From positions 1 through 53,102 of the forward strand of contig JAOTWS010000010.1 in assembly GCA_029862745.1 (NCBI GenBank): a DNA stretch of 53,102 nucleotides, in the 5' to 3' direction. Each line of letters begins with the position of its first letter. Position 1 is the stretch's first letter. The notes under the pieces were generated by a model. The model was given only the letters and a program-made list of their open reading frames with translations, was not told where the DNA came from and searched no databases. Source of the stretch: Nitrosopumilus sp. GTDB taxonomy: Archaea; Thermoproteota; Nitrososphaeria; Nitrososphaerales; Nitrosopumilaceae. The translations under genes and the position numbers were made by a program. Shown piece after piece: positions 1,816-52,949 of the stretch.

Positions 1816-3289
1816 GTCCTAAGCTAACTATAGGAGTTGCAAATTCTACAAATTTAATCAATGGATCTGGATATACACCAAAGCCCACCAAGAAGATTGT
1901 TGAGAAGATCATTACAGCAATAATAGATTTGGGTTCAGCAATTCTCTTCTCTGTTTCACCTTCAAAGTACATTTTTCTTGTAATCCAACCATAGTAAGCA
2001 AGAGATAATGCACTGTTAAGTACACCTGCTATTGCAAGCCAAGGTGCCCACCAGACAACAGAACCAGCATCTAATGCACTGCCAAACAACATCAATTTAC
2101 TCCAAAATCCTGAAAGTGGTGGAATACCTGCTAATGCAAACAAAGCAATTATCAAACCAAGAGCAGTAATTGGCATTCGTCTTCCAAGTCCCTTTAATTT
2201 ATCGATGTTAGTTACTGCAAGGGTAGTTACGATTCCTGCAATTGCAATAAAGGCAGCGCCTTTCATCACAGCATGATTCATTATTTGATACAAAGAACCT
2301 TGTAAGCCAAGTGAACTGTAAGGAGCAACGGCAAGTCCAATCAAAATGTATCCAGCATGTGCAATACTAGAATATGCAAGCATTCTTGAAAGATTCTTTT
2401 GCATGATTGCAGCAACATTACCAATTGTCATAGTCATCACTGCGATAATACCAAGAGCTAGAGTCCAATCAAGATTAAGAACAACCATTCCAAGAACCAC
2501 AACTCGTATTGTTGCTGCAAATCCAGCTTTCTTTGTTGCAGCTGCAAGAAGAGCAGTTATTGGAGAAGGTGCGCCTTCATATGTATCAGGAAGCCATTGA
2601 TGGAAAGGTACAAGTCCCATCTTAAATCCAAATCCTGCAATAAACATGCCAACTGAGAGTAAAGCAAGAGGTAAAAGAGTTGGATCAAGTGTTGAGTAAC
2701 CTTGAATTACTTCACCAATATTTGTAGAGCCAGTTAATCCATACGAAATTGAAATTCCGTAAACTATGATTGCAGATGATAAGGCACCAAACAAGAAATA
2801 TTTTAGAGCAGCTTCATTTGAGCTTGGATTCTTTTTCATAAATCCTACTAAAACGTATGTTGGAATACTCATGAGCTCCCATGCAACAAACAACATTACC
2901 AAGTCAGTAGAATATGCAACTAGTACCATTCCAATTGTTGCAAGTAAAATTAGTGAATAGTATACAGCAGGAGAGTTATGTTTTCGCATATAATTAAAAG
3001 AACCAACAGTAGTGAAGAGAGCAACAATTAACATTGCAATCGCAAAGAAGCCACCAAATGCATCATCTACTATCACATCTTGAGAGAAAAGAGCTGATGC
3101 GGATACATTATCATTTATGAATTGGTATCCAACATAAGCAATAGATACAATTAATGCTGCAAATGCAATTATTGCATAAAATGAATTAGAGCCTTGTTCT
3201 TTTCTTGAAATGCTAATAATTGGAAGAAGAATTCCAACAGTTCCCAATATTGCAATTAAGACCAATGGGGTTGAAGTAATTTCTAACAT
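1805..3289 (-). CDS. nuoN: NADH-quinone oxidoreductase-like complex I subunit N
   Basis: This is a 494-residue, very hydrophobic antiporter-like subunit of the membrane arm of complex I. The proton-antiporter core shows the conserved lysine-containing segments, including a KKAGFAATIR stretch, and the broken-helix GLVPFHQWLPD motif in mid-protein. It is last in the operon, 12 bp after nuoL, and its stop lies inside the convergent prenyl synthase gene. It pumps protons as electrons pass from the hydrophilic arm to quinone. Assignment as N rather than M or L rests on its length and its place at the end of the operon. Confidence 0.92.
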   Translation of the reverse strand: MLEITSTPLVLIAILGTVGILLPIISISRKEQGSNSFYAIIAFAALIVSIAYVGYQFINDNVSASALFSQDVIVDDAFGGFFAIAMLIVALFTTVGSFNYMRKHNSPAVYYSLILLATIGMVLVAYSTDLVMLFVAWELMSIPTYVLVGFMKKNPSSNEAALKYFLFGALSSAIIVYGISISYGLTGSTNIGEVIQGYSTLDPTLLPLALLSVGMFIAGFGFKMGLVPFHQWLPDTYEGAPSPITALLAAATKKAGFAATIRVVVLGMVVLNLDWTLALGIIAVMTMTIGNVAAIMQKNLSRMLAYSSIAHAGYILIGLAVAPYSSLGLQGSLYQIMNHAVMKGAAFIAIAGIVTTLAVTNIDKLKGLGRRMPITALGLIIALFALAGIPPLSGFWSKLMLFGSALDAGSVVWWAPWLAIAGVLNSALSLAYYGWITRKMYFEGETEKRIAEPKSIIAVMIFSTIFLVGFGVYPDPLIKFVEFATPIVSLGPIP

Positions 3290-3301
3290 TTCATCAATCT
3301 C

Positions 3302-5380
3302 CTATATCAACAATATCAGGACTACAAATAGTAATCCTGCTCCAAATACGAATAGATATGACTGAGATACACCAGTTTGAGTTCCTTGGATAACTTTAGC
3401 ACTCCATCCAACTGCTTTCTCAAATCCATCATTCATACCATAATCGATAGCCGTCTTTTCAAAGTATCTGAAAATGCCTCTTGCCAGCCACAAGGGTGCT
3501 ACTACAAAAAACCAATAGATAAGGGCATTAAGATACCATCGATTTAAAATAACTTTGTGTATTGCATAAAAGAAAATATTTGAATTAATGAATTTTACAG
3601 GATCAACCCATCTTCCAATATAGAAAATGTAACCAAGTCCTATACCAGTTCCAAATGCAACTAATGAAGAACCTAATGCAACAGGGTTTAGACCTTGCAA
3701 GAATTCTGGAAGAATTGATTCTTCAGTTGTGACATGTACAGTATGAATACCAAATGATTCTTCAAGATATTCTACAAATAAGTGATGAAGTCCTTCTTCA
3801 GCGGATAATCCAATAAGACCAATTCCAATAGTAAGCACTGCAAGAATTCCATATGGAACCCACATAGATAATGATGCTTCATGTATCTGATGACCTTCTT
3901 CTTCCATCTTTACGATGTGTTTGCTCTTCTTTCCGAAAAAGACCAATCCAATCATTCTTGTGGTGTAAAATGCTGTGATAACTGCAGTAAGTACTGCAAT
4001 TGCATATAATGGCATTGCCCATTCATTTCCAGATTCATAAACTGCTGCAAATATTGCATCCTTACTCCAGAATCCTGTTGTGATAAATGGAGCACCCATC
4101 AATCCAAGCCCGGCTGCCCACATGAATGCATATGTTTTCTTCATATGTTTTCTTAGACCACCCATATCACTCATAAATCGAGAACCAACAATGTGTAACA
4201 GAGAACCTGCAGCCATAAACAATGAAGCTTTAAACATTGCATGTGAAATCAAATGGAAGAATCCTGCAGTATAGCCATCAACATACTGATGAGACAGTCC
4301 TGCAACACCTAATGCCATCATCATATAACCTATTTGTGAACCAGTGGAATAAGCAAGAACTTTTTTAATTTCATTATTAACCATGCCTTGTGTTGCAAGT
4401 AACAATGCAGTAATTGCACCAACCCAAGCAACAATCTCAAAGAATTGATCTGCCATAATGCCTGCAGCACCTAATGCAAATACAAGTGGACCAATTCTTG
4501 CTACCAAGAATACACCTGCTTTGACCATTGTTGCTGCATGAATTAATGCAGATACTGCAGTAGGACCAGTCATTGCTTCTAAAAGCCATTCATTTAGTGG
4601 GAACTGAGCTGATTTTCCGATAGCACCTCCAAATAGTAAAACAAATGCAGGAACTAATAGTCCCTGTGCAGCCATTGTAGTTGCCCATTGAGTGTCTCCC
4701 ATTAATTCTTTAAATCCAAAAGTACCTGCAAACAAAAATATCAAAAGCATACCTGCAATCATCATTACATCACCAACTTTGGTCATGATGAATGCCTTCA
4801 TACCTGCATGTGTTGGTGCATAATAATCTAGCATACCAAGAACCGTTCTACCTTCGACACCAACATGATCTTTCTTTTTGTCACGATACCAAAAGCTGAT
4901 CAATGCATACGAAGCAAGTCCTACACCTTCCCATCCAAAGAATACTTGAAGTAAGTTATCAGACAAAACAATCAACTGCATTGAACCGATAAAGAACATC
5001 ATCCAGAACCAAAATCTTGTAATATCTTTATCGCCTTTCATGTATCCTGTACTGTAAATCATAATTAGGAATGAAATCCAACCAACCACATTTGCCATTA
5101 TTATTGAAAGTGGATCTGCTAATACTCCTCCTTTAAGACCGATTGCCTCTATCCACATAATTTGATGATGTATTTCATGTGCTTCTAAAGCAACAGGAAT
5201 CATAGTTGCTGCAGATAAAGCACTCATCAAAGCAAATGCAACTGCAACATAACCAGTTGCATGTTTTGATAATTTTCCAATACCTGGAATAATCATTGCT
5301 GCTGCAAATGGTAGAATCCAAACTAACCAAGCACTAAGAGCTCCAACGTCAAATGGTAACCCAAAAGATTCTGTTGCCAT
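3302..5380 (-). CDS. nuoL: Complex I subunit L
   Basis: At 692 residues this is the largest antiporter-like subunit. It includes the long C-terminal extension expected of NuoL (the lateral helix region follows the 14-helix core). The segment GKSAQFPLNEWLLEAMTGPTAV matches the conserved broken-helix region of NuoL (GKSAQ...W...AM.GPT). It starts at ATG 5380, 3 bp after nuoM, and is translationally close to nuoN downstream. The order M-L-N is typical of archaeal clusters and differs from the L-M-N order of E. coli. Confidence 0.94.
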   Translation of the reverse strand: MATESFGLPFDVGALSAWLVWILPFAAAMIIPGIGKLSKHATGYVAVAFALMSALSAATMIPVALEAHEIHHQIMWIEAIGLKGGVLADPLSIIMANVVGWISFLIMIYSTGYMKGDKDITRFWFWMMFFIGSMQLIVLSDNLLQVFFGWEGVGLASYALISFWYRDKKKDHVGVEGRTVLGMLDYYAPTHAGMKAFIMTKVGDVMMIAGMLLIFLFAGTFGFKELMGDTQWATTMAAQGLLVPAFVLLFGGAIGKSAQFPLNEWLLEAMTGPTAVSALIHAATMVKAGVFLVARIGPLVFALGAAGIMADQFFEIVAWVGAITALLLATQGMVNNEIKKVLAYSTGSQIGYMMMALGVAGLSHQYVDGYTAGFFHLISHAMFKASLFMAAGSLLHIVGSRFMSDMGGLRKHMKKTYAFMWAAGLGLMGAPFITTGFWSKDAIFAAVYESGNEWAMPLYAIAVLTAVITAFYTTRMIGLVFFGKKSKHIVKMEEEGHQIHEASLSMWVPYGILAVLTIGIGLIGLSAEEGLHHLFVEYLEESFGIHTVHVTTEESILPEFLQGLNPVALGSSLVAFGTGIGLGYIFYIGRWVDPVKFINSNIFFYAIHKVILNRWYLNALIYWFFVVAPLWLARGIFRYFEKTAIDYGMNDGFEKAVGWSAKVIQGTQTGVSQSYLFVFGAGLLFVVLILLI

Positions 5381-43522: not shown

Positions 43523-44053
43523 ATGGTAAATATTTTTAACAATGTAGATTTAGAGAAGGTTTCTCAAACATTGGAAAAAGGAAAAGAAGAAAAATCATCT
43601 CTTAAAAAACCAGTTAAACTCGAAGGAGAATGGGTTTTAGATTCAAATCAAGGATATCAATTCAGAACAGAATTGGGTTTTGAGAAGGGAAAGCAAGTCA
43701 TCGAAGTTGATTCTCCATCGTTTCTTGGAGGTCAAGGAAATAGATTGGGTCCTATGGCTTATTGTGTTGCAGGAATCACATCATGTTTTATTGGAACCTT
43801 TGTAGGAATTGCAGCTCAACAGGAAATAAAATTAACTAAATTAAAGGTGAATACAGAATGCCAAGTAAATTTCGCAAAAACATTTGATTTGGCTGATGAA
43901 CCAATTACTGAGGGAATTAATTTCCATGTAGAGGCTGAAAGTGAAAATGCAGACAAAGCAAAACTTCAAGAACTATTAGGCATGGCCAAAGAGCGATGTC
44001 CTGCCATGTACAGTATGTCTCACAATATCAATGTCGATGCAAAGATAGTATAA
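43523..44053 (+). CDS. OsmC-family peroxiredoxin-like protein
   Basis: This 176-residue OsmC/Ohr-family protein removes organic hydroperoxides using two reactive cysteines. The first is in AYCVAGITSCF (about 80-90) and the second in KERCPAMY (about 153-160). The N-terminal 40 residues are extra and charged. A TATA-like TTTATGTA about 24 bases before ATG 43523 suggests a leaderless start. The methyltransferase-RHH gene follows after 21 bp, so the two may be cotranscribed. Confidence 0.86.
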   Translation: MVNIFNNVDLEKVSQTLEKGKEEKSSLKKPVKLEGEWVLDSNQGYQFRTELGFEKGKQVIEVDSPSFLGGQGNRLGPMAYCVAGITSCFIGTFVGIAAQQEIKLTKLKVNTECQVNFAKTFDLADEPITEGINFHVEAESENADKAKLQELLGMAKERCPAMYSMSHNINVDAKIV

Positions 44054-44074: not shown

Positions 44075-45307
44075 ATGGTTACTACATCTCAAATAATCAA
44101 TGCATATAGAAAATATGCAGACAAATATGATTTTGCTGTAAAACTTTATCCTCTGTTAGGAATCAAAATTGGAAAATATAGAAAAATGACAATAGACGCA
44201 CTTAAGCTTTCAAAAGGAGATACAGTTGTAGAGCTTGGCTGTGGAACTGGTTTGAATTTTTCTCTAGTTTTAGAAAAAATTGGTCCTGAGGGAAAATTAA
44301 TTGGTGTTGATCTAGTTGACAAAATGCTTGATCAAGCTAGGAAAAGAGTCAAAGAAAATGGATGGAATAATGTTGAATTGATACAAAGTGATTTTACCGA
44401 TTATGGGTTTCCAAAAGAAGTAGATGGAATTTTTGCAGGTGGCGCACTTCAATATTCTCCAGAGTATGATAAAATAATCAAGCGAGGTTATGATGCATTA
44501 AAACCTGGTAAAAAATTTGTATTATTGGATTTTAAAATGTCACAAGGTCCTGCAAGAATCTTTGCACCAATATTGATTTTTTTCACTAGCCCTTTTGAAG
44601 CTAAAAAAGAATACTTGGAACGCCATGGATGGAAATCGATTGAAAAATATTTTGATGACACATCTTACTTAGAAGGATGGGGAGGATTTTTGTATCTTTC
44701 CGTTGTAAAAAGAAAGCAGCATTCTACTACAAAAGAAAAGACAAAGACGATCACATATCGACTTCCTGCTAAAATGATTGACGAACTGGAAACTCAGGCC
44801 ATGCAGCAAAACACATCACAAAACGTACTAGTAAAGCAAATCATCCAGAAATACTTACAATGGGATAGATTTTCTGAGGGAATTGCAATGATTCCAATCC
44901 CTAAAAATATTCTGCAGATGATGGGACACGACATGACCGCAACAGACATTGACCTGATAGTCGAATCAGTAAAGCCAATCATCAAAGACAGCGTCATGTT
45001 CATGAAAGGTAAATACGATCTGAAAAGATGCATAGAGACACTTGAGGATTACATGCAGGCAACAGGGATGAATTCAGACCACAGAATAGAAGGATCGCTG
45101 CACCACTTTATCGTACAGCATGGATTGGGAAAGAACTGGTCCTTGTTTACAGAACAACTGCTAAAGGAGATATTTCACGAGTTTTTGCCAGAAAAGAATA
45201 TCAAATGCCAGACCACCGATTCCACGGTGATTATTACCATAGCGTTGGGTTCAGACTTTGATGAGCATGATTATCAGGAAAAAAAGAAATCAATTGTTGA
45301 GAATTAA
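44075..45307 (+). CDS. SAM methyltransferase fused to a ribbon-helix-helix regulator domain
   Basis: This 410-residue two-part protein has a class I methyltransferase at residues 1-213, with the SAM-binding VVELGCGTGLN (51-61) and acidic residue in GVDLVDKML. A ribbon-helix-helix segment follows at about 223-262 (TITYRLPAKMIDELETQ...). Residues 265-410 form a domain also found in the stand-alone regulator at 52422-52949. The C-terminal part is less AT-rich than the methyltransferase half and uses more C- and G-ending codons from about base 44714, which suggests a fusion of genes of different origin. Function is unknown: a DNA-binding methyltransferase, or two functions that became linked. Confidence 0.75.
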   Translation: MVTTSQIINAYRKYADKYDFAVKLYPLLGIKIGKYRKMTIDALKLSKGDTVVELGCGTGLNFSLVLEKIGPEGKLIGVDLVDKMLDQARKRVKENGWNNVELIQSDFTDYGFPKEVDGIFAGGALQYSPEYDKIIKRGYDALKPGKKFVLLDFKMSQGPARIFAPILIFFTSPFEAKKEYLERHGWKSIEKYFDDTSYLEGWGGFLYLSVVKRKQHSTTKEKTKTITYRLPAKMIDELETQAMQQNTSQNVLVKQIIQKYLQWDRFSEGIAMIPIPKNILQMMGHDMTATDIDLIVESVKPIIKDSVMFMKGKYDLKRCIETLEDYMQATGMNSDHRIEGSLHHFIVQHGLGKNWSLFTEQLLKEIFHEFLPEKNIKCQTTDSTVIITIALGSDFDEHDYQEKKKSIVEN

Positions 45308-45628
45308 CTCAACTTCTATCTGACCATTATCAAATGTACTTTTCATTCCCTTGATTTTGCTTTTGTACATAAACAGTCTTTTTCCTTCATCAGTGATTGT
45401 TCCAGATATGTGCAGAAGTTTATTGTCATGAAGGTTCTGAACTCTCCTGTACACCGTACTCATTGGGATGTTGGTGTCAGAAGTTATTTCAATTACGGAT
45501 TTTGGCTTGTACATGATGGATTCAAGGATAGATCGGCAGTACTTGTCTGATAAAATTTCTAGCAGGTAGTCTTTTCTTTCTGTTTCTTCAATTTTGAAGG
45601 CTTGTGATTGTTGTTGTAATGTTTGCAT
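45290..45628 (-). CDS. Winged-helix transcriptional regulator (ArsR-like)
   Basis: This 112-residue protein contains a helix-turn-helix core, EILSDKYCRSILESIMYKPKSVIEITSDTNIPMSTVYRRVQNL, followed by a short wing. It resembles small thaumarchaeal ArsR/TrmB-type regulators without a metal site. The ATG at 45628 starts MQTLQQQSQ; a longer reading lacks support. Its 3' end overlaps the end of the methyltransferase-RHH gene by 18 bp in convergent orientation, so the two transcripts are mutually antisense there. Confidence 0.75.
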   Translation of the reverse strand: MQTLQQQSQAFKIEETERKDYLLEILSDKYCRSILESIMYKPKSVIEITSDTNIPMSTVYRRVQNLHDNKLLHISGTITDEGKRLFMYKSKIKGMKSTFDNGQIEVELILNN

Positions 45629-45821
45629 ATTGTAATTATGACTATTTTTGATATAACCACTGAGTATACACTGTCTTACATGGAGTGCAAGTGAAATTAG
45701 TGTTATTTTTATCAATTGAGGGAAATATGAAAATCCAAGATGATGAGGGTGCATTGATGAACAATTACCATTGATGAGAATTTAAACTGATTTTATAAGA
45801 AAATCCTCCAGTTACACAATC

Positions 45822-46319
45822 ATGGTAGCCATAACACCAGATGTAAAAAGAATGATGAACTCACAACATGTAATTCTAATTGGCACTGTCAATGATCAAA
45901 AAATTCCTAACGTTTCACCAAGAAGTTCATTTTATGTTGACAATGATGTAATTTACTGGTATGAAATTTTCATGCACAAATCCTATCAAAACTTTACAAA
46001 AAACAATTGGGTGAGTGTGTCAGTAGTTGATTATAATGAATTTTCAGGATATCAGTTAAAAGGACATACAAAGATAGTCACTGACAAGAAAGAATATTTT
46101 CATGCTGACACCAGGCTCTCAGAGAATCTCCCAAAAAACCATGAAGAAAAAGTTAGGAAATTAATCCTGAATAACGATACCAAGATAATCCAATTCAAAC
46201 CACTTGTGTTATACTCGTTGAATCCTGCAGACTTTGAAAAAGCACCTGGCTTGCTGGAATCAGATGTGGATCTAGACAAGCTACAGAAACTTGAAGAGTT
46301 TTCAATGCTAGACTACTGA
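45822..46319 (+). CDS. Pyridoxamine 5'-phosphate oxidase-like (split-barrel FMN) protein
   Basis: This 165-residue protein has the split-barrel front HVILIGTVNDQKIPNVSPRSSFYVDNDVIYWYE, as in FMN- or F420-binding PNPOx-like proteins. The specific reaction is unknown; such archaeal proteins are often flavin reductases or heme-degrading enzymes. ATG 45822 is preceded by TTTATAAG about 28 bases upstream. The following nuclease-like gene starts 2 bp after its stop. Confidence 0.78.
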   Translation: MVAITPDVKRMMNSQHVILIGTVNDQKIPNVSPRSSFYVDNDVIYWYEIFMHKSYQNFTKNNWVSVSVVDYNEFSGYQLKGHTKIVTDKKEYFHADTRLSENLPKNHEEKVRKLILNNDTKIIQFKPLVLYSLNPADFEKAPGLLESDVDLDKLQKLEEFSMLDY

Positions 46320-50665: not shown

Positions 50666-52075
50666 CTATACTCCCGCTATGCTGCACCTGTTTGGACCCA
50701 ATTCCAAATCAGGGACATCGGAGGGATTCAAAGGAATGCTTCCTTTGTTTATCTGAATAATTTTCTGATAATTCATGGGTCTTGGCACTGTAACACCAAC
50801 TACTTGTTTTATGAAATCTGCTTCAGACAGATTCAAAATGTCATGTTCTTTTGTCTTTGCTATGGTAGTTGAAAATACTCCATTTGTTGAAGTTACAGAT
50901 GATCCATGATGAGTTGGGAATACTATCGTATCTAAAGGAAGTTTCAATAGTTTATTGTGTAGTGAATCATAAAGTTGTGCTGCAAACTCTTCTGCCTTAT
51001 CTCTGAGATCAGGTCTACCAATACTTTCAATGAATAATATGTCTCCAGTGAACACATATTTTTCATCTACTACATATGATAGACTTCCAGGAGTATGACC
51101 AGGAGTATGAATGACACGAAGTTTAGAGTTGCCAAACATTATCTCTTGACCATCATCAAGAAAATTAGCTGATCTATCCCACACCTCGAGTTTACTTTCA
51201 TACATTGGGGAACCAGTAAGATTTGCTAGTTGTTGGGCAGCAGAGACATGATCGGCATGTTGGTGTGTATCAATTATGTGAGTGATTTTTGCCCCTTCTA
51301 GTTTTACTATTTCCAGATATTTTTCAGCAGGATAAAGTGGATCAATTACTATTGCAGACTTTTGGGATATTACAATATGAGAAAGACATCCTTTACCCAC
51401 TTTTTCCACCTGAATTACAGTTGGATTTTTTTCTGCATTTACTGAATTGAGAACTTGACTCCATCCAGCAAGACCATCTTCTAGAACCCGGGATTTAATC
51501 CCATTTCTTGCAAGAGCAAAAGTTGCAATCGTTGCCATGTTGCCATGAGGGCAAATTGTGACGATTTCCTTGTCTTGTGGAATTTTTGACATATTTTCAG
51601 GCTTGAACAGGTCTGATAGTGGAATGTTTTTACTACCTGGAATATTATAATCAGAAAATTCATCAGAATCTCTAACATCCAACATGTACAAATTAGAATC
51701 ATGTAATCTCTTTGAAAGATTGTTTGGATTAATTGCTGTGGGAGGACTGCCCCTTATCAATTCCTTGGTCCAGTTTTTCATTCCACCTTTCAAATAATTA
51801 GCATTTAATCCAAATGAACGCATCATCATGGTAGTTTCTTCAGCCATCTCCCCATCACCATCAATTAAAACAAGCTTTACATTCTTTGGAATTTTAGGCA
51901 TCAAAGTTTCTTTAGTTCTAGTATCACAAACGGCATGAACAGAACCACTAATGTGTCCATCTTTGTAAGTATCTTGCAACCTCAAATCAAACAAAAGTAA
52001 TGGTTCTTTATTTTGTAGCGAATCATACAATTCATCAGCAGTTATTTCAAATTCCTTAGAATGTAGTTCGGCCAT
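50666..52075 (-). CDS. Double-rhodanese / metallo-beta-lactamase persulfide dioxygenase-like protein
   Basis: This 469-residue protein has three modules. Rhodanese 1 (about 8-108) lacks the active cysteine: the loop reads LIDGDGEMA, with Asp72 in its place. Rhodanese 2 (about 115-210) keeps Cys175 in TICPHGNMA. The metallo-beta-lactamase domain (about 222-440) has HQHADH (271-276), PGHTPG with His327, Asp345, and GRPD (353-356) as in ETHE1-type persulfide dioxygenases. The enzymes oxidise glutathione or protein persulfide to sulfite. Here the rhodaneses precede the MBL part, the reverse of many bacterial fusions such as CstB. Confidence 0.85.
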   Translation of the reverse strand: MAELHSKEFEITADELYDSLQNKEPLLLFDLRLQDTYKDGHISGSVHAVCDTRTKETLMPKIPKNVKLVLIDGDGEMAEETTMMMRSFGLNANYLKGGMKNWTKELIRGSPPTAINPNNLSKRLHDSNLYMLDVRDSDEFSDYNIPGSKNIPLSDLFKPENMSKIPQDKEIVTICPHGNMATIATFALARNGIKSRVLEDGLAGWSQVLNSVNAEKNPTVIQVEKVGKGCLSHIVISQKSAIVIDPLYPAEKYLEIVKLEGAKITHIIDTHQHADHVSAAQQLANLTGSPMYESKLEVWDRSANFLDDGQEIMFGNSKLRVIHTPGHTPGSLSYVVDEKYVFTGDILFIESIGRPDLRDKAEEFAAQLYDSLHNKLLKLPLDTIVFPTHHGSSVTSTNGVFSTTIAKTKEHDILNLSEADFIKQVVGVTVPRPMNYQKIIQINKGSIPLNPSDVPDLELGPNRCSIAGV

Positions 52076-52421: not shown

Positions 52422-52949
52422 TTATTGAGAAAACCTGATGGTAACTGAATCTTCAGCAGTTATTGTTTTACAGGATTTTTCCAATGTGGATCGAATTAAT
52501 GACTCCAAAAATGTCTTTAGAAAAATCGTACCTTTTTTTCCTAGTTGATGGTGAATGCTAATTGCTATGCTGCTTTCAGTTTTTTCCAAATCACAAGTTC
52601 CATATCCGCAATGCTCAAAATACATTTTGATAAAATCAGATACAATCTCAGAATTCATGTCCTTCCATTTGAAAAGAATGAATTCCTTGGGTTCCTTTGA
52701 GCCTATACCTGATGCCAACTGTATCAGTTGCTTCTCGTCAAGAACATCGATAATGGATGAAAAGGCATCATGACTCATCATCAAAACCCCGAATTTTTCC
52801 ATATATCGTTCAAGTTGGACATAATTTCCCAGGATTTGGTTTGCCAATGTATTGAGGCTGACATTTTTGTCTTCAGCAATGTTTCTTAATTTCTTACTGT
52901 TGTCTTCATCTATCCTAAATGTGATTGTGGATGTTTTCTTTTTGTTCAT
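52422..52949 (-). CDS. Ribbon-helix-helix regulator with a thaumarchaeal C-terminal domain
   Basis: This 175-residue protein has a ribbon-helix-helix DNA-binding segment at about 6-45 (TITFRIDEDNSKKLRNIAEDKNVSLNTLANQI). The 130-residue C-terminal domain aligns without large gaps to residues 265-410 of the methyltransferase fusion at 44075. Shared positions include the TxTITxR front, the conserved SIHHQLGKKGTIFLKTFLESL (HHFIVQHGLGKNWSLFTEQLL in the other), and the VTI end. It is probably a dimeric transcription factor of unknown target. Confidence 0.78.
   Translation of the reverse strand: MNKKKTSTITFRIDEDNSKKLRNIAEDKNVSLNTLANQILGNYVQLERYMEKFGVLMMSHDAFSSIIDVLDEKQLIQLASGIGSKEPKEFILFKWKDMNSEIVSDFIKMYFEHCGYGTCDLEKTESSIAISIHHQLGKKGTIFLKTFLESLIRSTLEKSCKTITAEDSVTIRFSQ

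Follow-up and report, generated by a model that had tools for sequence, protein, structure and literature searches.

A probably recent, single-genome fusion of a SAM methyltransferase with a ribbon-helix-helix regulator in a marine ammonia-oxidising archaeon

In one marine ammonia-oxidising archaeon (Nitrosopumilus sp., assembly GCA_029862745.1), positions 44075-45307 of the forward strand form a single open frame of 410 codons (ATG to TAA; 410 residues), in which a class I SAM methyltransferase (residues 1 to about 210) continues in frame into a ribbon-helix-helix (RHH) regulator that has a C-terminal domain of about 130 residues. Positions refer throughout to the window, that is, the whole stretch of 53,102 nucleotides that was analysed (contig JAOTWS010000010.1, positions 1 to 53,102). 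Both genes stand alone in all relatives examined. The fusion is most likely young and species-specific, with the regulator placed under the expression of the methyltransferase, and there is little to suggest a new conserved function. Our best explanation, held with moderate confidence, is a recent fusion that rewired the expression of the regulator and that has no conserved DNA-targeted or SAM-sensing function.

A sequence-only reading of this DNA had claimed the fusion and both of its halves, and all three claims were confirmed: one frame spans the two domains, the joint is in frame, and neither stops nor frameshifts occur inside the 410 codons. A frameshift or read-through origin was discarded, as the frame is clean and the relatives have two separate genes with their own ends. 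The methyltransferase part (44075..44698, forward strand) matches Methyltransf_31 (PF13847) at residues 46-159 with 68.6 bits, against a gathering cut-off of 27; the motif VVELGCGTGLNF is intact and the SAM-binding motif I is present (ELGCGTG). It thus resembles the Methyltransf_31/25 and UbiE/COQ5 kind (PF13847, PF13649, PF01209), scoring well above cut-off, and differs from it in bearing a C-terminal regulator. Among the NCBIfam models listed, every one leaves this half under its cut-off, including two candidates that were rejected, namely arsenite methyltransferase ArsM (NF008823; 70.5 bits vs 263) and demethylmenaquinone methyltransferase MenG/UbiE (58.6 vs 235 and 58.1 vs 420). No family match in Pfam or NCBIfam links the enzyme to DNA methylation. 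The model of the full fusion has a mean pLDDT of 64.6, and its methyltransferase half, built from few relatives, is modelled poorly.

The second part (44699..45307, forward strand) comprises the RHH region (about residues 222-266) and the C-terminal domain, and shares 60-72% identity, across about 190 residues, with genes that stand alone in many genomes. Broadly, CopG_antitoxin and BrnA-type RHH models of Pfam and NCBIfam do match the C-terminal part of the fusion, although below their cut-offs: CopG_antitoxin (PF12441; gathering cut-off 28) gives 23.3 bits for the fusion and 26.4 for a stand-alone relative, and 25 of the 29 RHH members match it at E<=0.01. The fold is that of the CopG/Arc RHH proteins according to the model predicted for a relative that stands alone (mean pLDDT 79), in which the RHH lies at residues 14-64 and aligns with Arc (1myk, Z 5.8, 1.7 A over 45), AmrZ (3qoq, Z 5.8) and 3ft7 (Z 5.9). 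For the C-terminal domain of the same model the best hits are H-NOX, BcsD and TRAPP chains (Z 5.7-8.0, rmsd 3.3-4.5 over 97-125 residues), with designed proteins intermixed at Z 6-7.7. In SCOP, H-NOX and TRAPP share a single fold of ligand-binding domains, and the modelled domain is suggestive of a ligand-sensing role. Two further candidates were set aside: Mad2 of the MADS defence system (PADLOC PDLC04134, 492 positions), of which the fusion matches 254-421 only and the stand-alone relatives about 277-403, and a PDB sequence match to 5v5t (E 0.0045), which looks like helical background. As for a type II antitoxin, the constant neighbour of the RHH gene is a winged-helix protein and no recognised toxin.

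The fused half is akin to the stand-alone Nitrosopumilaceae regulators with a C-terminal domain of about 130 residues and a winged-helix partner, with which it shares its identity over the full length and the same partner; it differs from them in lacking a promoter of its own, in standing behind an enzyme and in carrying about 10 extra C-terminal residues. No established family name for these RHH regulators was found. A stand-alone gene of the same RHH-plus-C-terminal-domain kind, as the earlier reading had pointed out, lies at 52422..52949 (reverse strand; 175 residues), but it is a distant paralogue (26% identity over 184 columns, E 7e-12). It was rejected as the source of the fused half, whose closest kin are genes of other genomes (60-72% identity) and a pseudogene elsewhere in its own genome, described below.

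The fusion was searched for in 250 genomes of the family, 139 of which hold relatives of the query at E <= 1e-30. It occurs in one of the 250, and among the matches listed all others cover one half; nor does a second fusion appear among the matches listed for 400 genomes of the class, so the count of fused against stand-alone forms that the earlier reading had called for gives a single fusion. On the matches listed for these 250 family and 400 class genomes, the idea of a conserved fusion family was rejected. At 68% identity or above, the methyltransferase half is present in 8 genomes, of which one is the window's own and the other seven have it as a stand-alone open frame of 215-227 codons; it is absent from most regulator-bearing genomes; the RHH half stands alone in the remaining family genomes with matches. 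Nitrosopumilus sp. CSMAG_1990 and Ca. Nitrosomaritimum khambatensis, whose species may already be represented among the genomes counted, carry the methyltransferase alone. Judged by its named relatives, the organism belongs to the Nitrosopumilaceae and probably to Nitrosopumilus. In G072 and G192, matches extending beyond the methyltransferase end proved to be stops read through, with no RHH remnants. A search of genome contigs yielded single-half relatives only, viral contigs gave no relative, and nothing on this fusion was found in the literature.

The birth of the gene can be read at its joint. Stand-alone relatives of the methyltransferase, 68-76% identical, end in GGFLYLSVGTK[IV] and a stop codon, and stand-alone RHH genes begin with TTG, ATG or GTG, followed for example by DVSTVKRKPHS; the fusion reads GGFLYLSV-VKRKQHS, so that the methyltransferase part is missing its last four or so native residues (GTKI/GTKV) and its stop codon. 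The two parts meet at TCCGTT (44699..44704, forward strand), where about five bases are common to both parents. When 161 bases around the joint were searched as DNA against the window's own genome, two other relevant places emerged, whose matches abut at 44699. One, on contig C17, is the end of a broken, unfused methyltransferase copy (matching window 44640-44699), a pseudogene at L069 4222-4786 that lacks its N-terminus and is frameshifted; the other, on contig C9, is the beginning of a broken, unfused RHH copy (matching window 44699-44753), a pseudogene at L011, about 3240-3670, with stops and a deletion. No other site spanning the joint was found in the genome by this search. Nearly complete coding parts joined in frame at a short shared stretch point to illegitimate recombination and are hard for an assembler to yield, and an assembly join is thus unlikely. 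The sequence-only reading had noticed a change of composition at about 44714; the change is real, with GC3 rising from 0.188 in the methyltransferase part to 0.458 in the RHH part, but its position was off, the joint being at 44699-44704. The GC3 of the RHH half stands against 0.19-0.37 in the neighbours and a median of 0.277 (highest 0.512) in stand-alone relatives, and hints at arrival from another lineage.

On the other side of the regulator, the winged-helix partner gene (45290..45628, reverse strand; 112 residues, starting at a conserved ATG) lies tail to tail with the RHH gene and overlaps it by 18 bases; its matches to HTH_20 and TrmB are below cut-off. RHH and winged-helix genes adjoin in relatives as well, in convergent or tandem order, and since the window keeps the partner tail to tail, the pair moved as a unit. 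Upstream of the partner gene's TATA box, within region 45655-45690, lies the promoter element TGTAAGACAGTGTATACT (45663..45680, reverse strand), the sole exact copy in the genome. It is found in the same place, upstream of GTTATATC, in most of the partner promoters compared, while the partner proteins are only 43-77% identical; in other lineages TTGTCTTGCANTGCA replaces it upstream of the winged-helix TATA box. From this conservation we infer that TGTAAGACAGTGTATACT is a candidate operator of the RHH/winged-helix pair. An overlapping stretch of 82 bases (45665..45746, reverse strand) has a remnant, 88% identical by blastn, at about C4:49156-49236 (L157 1436-1516), where a CDC48-like gene of the same genome has its 3' end; this is likely an earlier position of the cassette, and so the footprint of a move or duplication. 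CDC48 was not found adjoining the RHH pair in relatives.

Some side observations concern the surroundings of the pair. In G013 the RHH orthologue is split by a frameshift (L082 3256-3866) and its winged-helix partner is intact. To the right of the pair in the window, a PPOX-type gene (45822-46319) is patchy, being present in 4 of 37 genomes, and is near the RHH pair also in G152. Furthermore, a rhodanese/metallo-beta-lactamase gene (50666-52075 in the window; L083 5103-6539; L161 5037-6422; L070 5686-7071) lies a few kb or less from the RHH pair in G003 and G177 and from the methyltransferase in G012, just as it does in the window; the recurrence points to a flexible genomic island carrying stress or sulfur genes.

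The fusion has also altered what precedes the regulator. A TATA box precedes the start of the RHH relatives by about 35 bases, with a median score of 7.8 that 0.3% of random window positions attain. At the equivalent place in the fusion, upstream of an in-frame TTG (44690..44692, forward strand), the score is 0.6, which about half of random window positions reach. With the TATA box lost, and unless another type of promoter serves, the regulator can be made only from transcripts starting further upstream. An OsmC-like gene (43523..44053, forward strand; PF02566, 65.9 bits) ends 21 bases before the fusion and is possibly co-transcribed with it. The TTG falls, with no gap, exactly where the relatives have their RHH start codon, which would allow separate translation from the long transcript. 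Two products would result, the RHH protein being read from 44690 as the downstream member of an overlapping gene pair with no fusion protein formed. That TTG is the commonest start in the relatives speaks for this; the missing box at the usual -35 speaks against it, as does the fact that TTG is a methyltransferase codon in most relatives, so that its presence needs no selection. We consider two products unlikely, and take a single polypeptide as the most likely outcome of the fusion.

Both halves have evolved fast. Among 49 RHH proteins arranged in a tree, none has a longer end branch than the fused half (0.43 vs a median of 0.061), which is placed beside the tail-to-tail group (94/90 support), a position made unsure by that branch length. 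Changes at conserved columns are most numerous in the fused RHH half, where the near-invariant G of KIGMIP is changed, and the same holds for the methyltransferase half among nine; the private methyltransferase changes at invariant sites are too few to bear on selection. Counted against the remnants in its own genome, and thus also taking in time before the fusion, the window-specific changes number 30 in the RHH half, 20 of them third-position (18 silent, 12 replacing), and 39 in the methyltransferase half, 19 of them third-position (15 silent, 24 replacing). The RHH half therefore seems to have been under constraint for at least part of the counted time, and the methyltransferase half looks weakly constrained. 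The fast evolution could be an adaptation to a new task.

An alternative is a bifunctional trigger enzyme, whose RHH half would bind the candidate operator and whose methyltransferase half would sense SAM or a substrate and set DNA binding. Key motifs are kept in both halves, the operator sequence is intact 0.4 kb downstream and the third-position bias of the RHH half would be expected of it; nevertheless, the architecture occurs in one genome only, the RHH half is accelerated even at KIGMIP, and replacements exceed silent changes in the methyltransferase half. We regard a trigger enzyme as quite improbable, and give still less credence to the fused halves acting jointly at the partner-gene operator, thereby coupling SAM or substrate state to transcription in a newly born system of a single archaeal lineage. 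The role that the sequence-only reading had proposed, in which the regulator targets the enzyme to DNA or SAM binding becomes a transcriptional signal, finds support in the architecture only; all relatives keep the halves apart.

The fusion might instead be a dying gene, a step in the loss of both genes of the kind seen in the decayed C9 and C17 copies. The speed at which both halves evolve, the pseudogene state of both copies in the same genome and the frameshifted RHH gene of the pair in G013 are in keeping with decay, but an open frame of 410 codons free of stops and frameshifts and the third-position bias in the RHH half are not, and we give decay a low probability. Finally, an assembly artefact joining two unrelated stretches is very improbable, since the joint, despite the change of composition there, is in frame and has only about 5 bases in common between the parents, the genome holds no repeat across it, and the right-hand neighbours (the winged-helix gene, and PPOX as in G152) are natural ones for an RHH gene.

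The preferred reading is thus a recent fusion with rewired expression. Comparison with the relatives and remnants shows illegitimate recombination at about five shared bases to have joined the 3' end of the patchily distributed methyltransferase gene to the 5' end of the RHH gene, which arrived together with its convergent winged-helix partner. The RHH half is probably still able to dimerise and to bind DNA; in the methyltransferase half the SAM-binding motif is retained. Deprived of its own promoter, the regulator would probably follow the methyltransferase in the amount and timing of its expression, and possibly the upstream OsmC gene as well. With selection relaxed or altered, the enzyme probably either rides on the regulator as a passenger or bears it as a tolerated tail.

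Fusions of ArsR-type regulators to UbiE-like methyltransferases are widespread, and they too place a transcription regulator in the same chain as a class I methyltransferase; they differ from the present case, known from one genome, in DNA-binding fold and domain order. The RHH fold is also linked with SAM in MetJ, a SAM-binding RHH repressor that binds SAM on the RHH dimer itself (PMC1282579). The likeness to MetJ is at the level of fold and ligand, with no sequence relation claimed, and in the fusion SAM would sit on a separate enzyme domain.

As an event in one genome, the fusion means less than was first proposed. It is nonetheless an unusually well documented birth of a fusion gene, with the parents present as remnants in the same genome, the ancestral ends given by the relatives and the breakpoint placed within a few bases. 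Besides, it draws attention to RHH and winged-helix proteins as a widespread, unnamed two-regulator module of the Nitrosopumilaceae, for which there is a conserved candidate operator. Should the fused protein work as a unit, it would illustrate the conversion of a metabolic enzyme into a transcription factor in one step.
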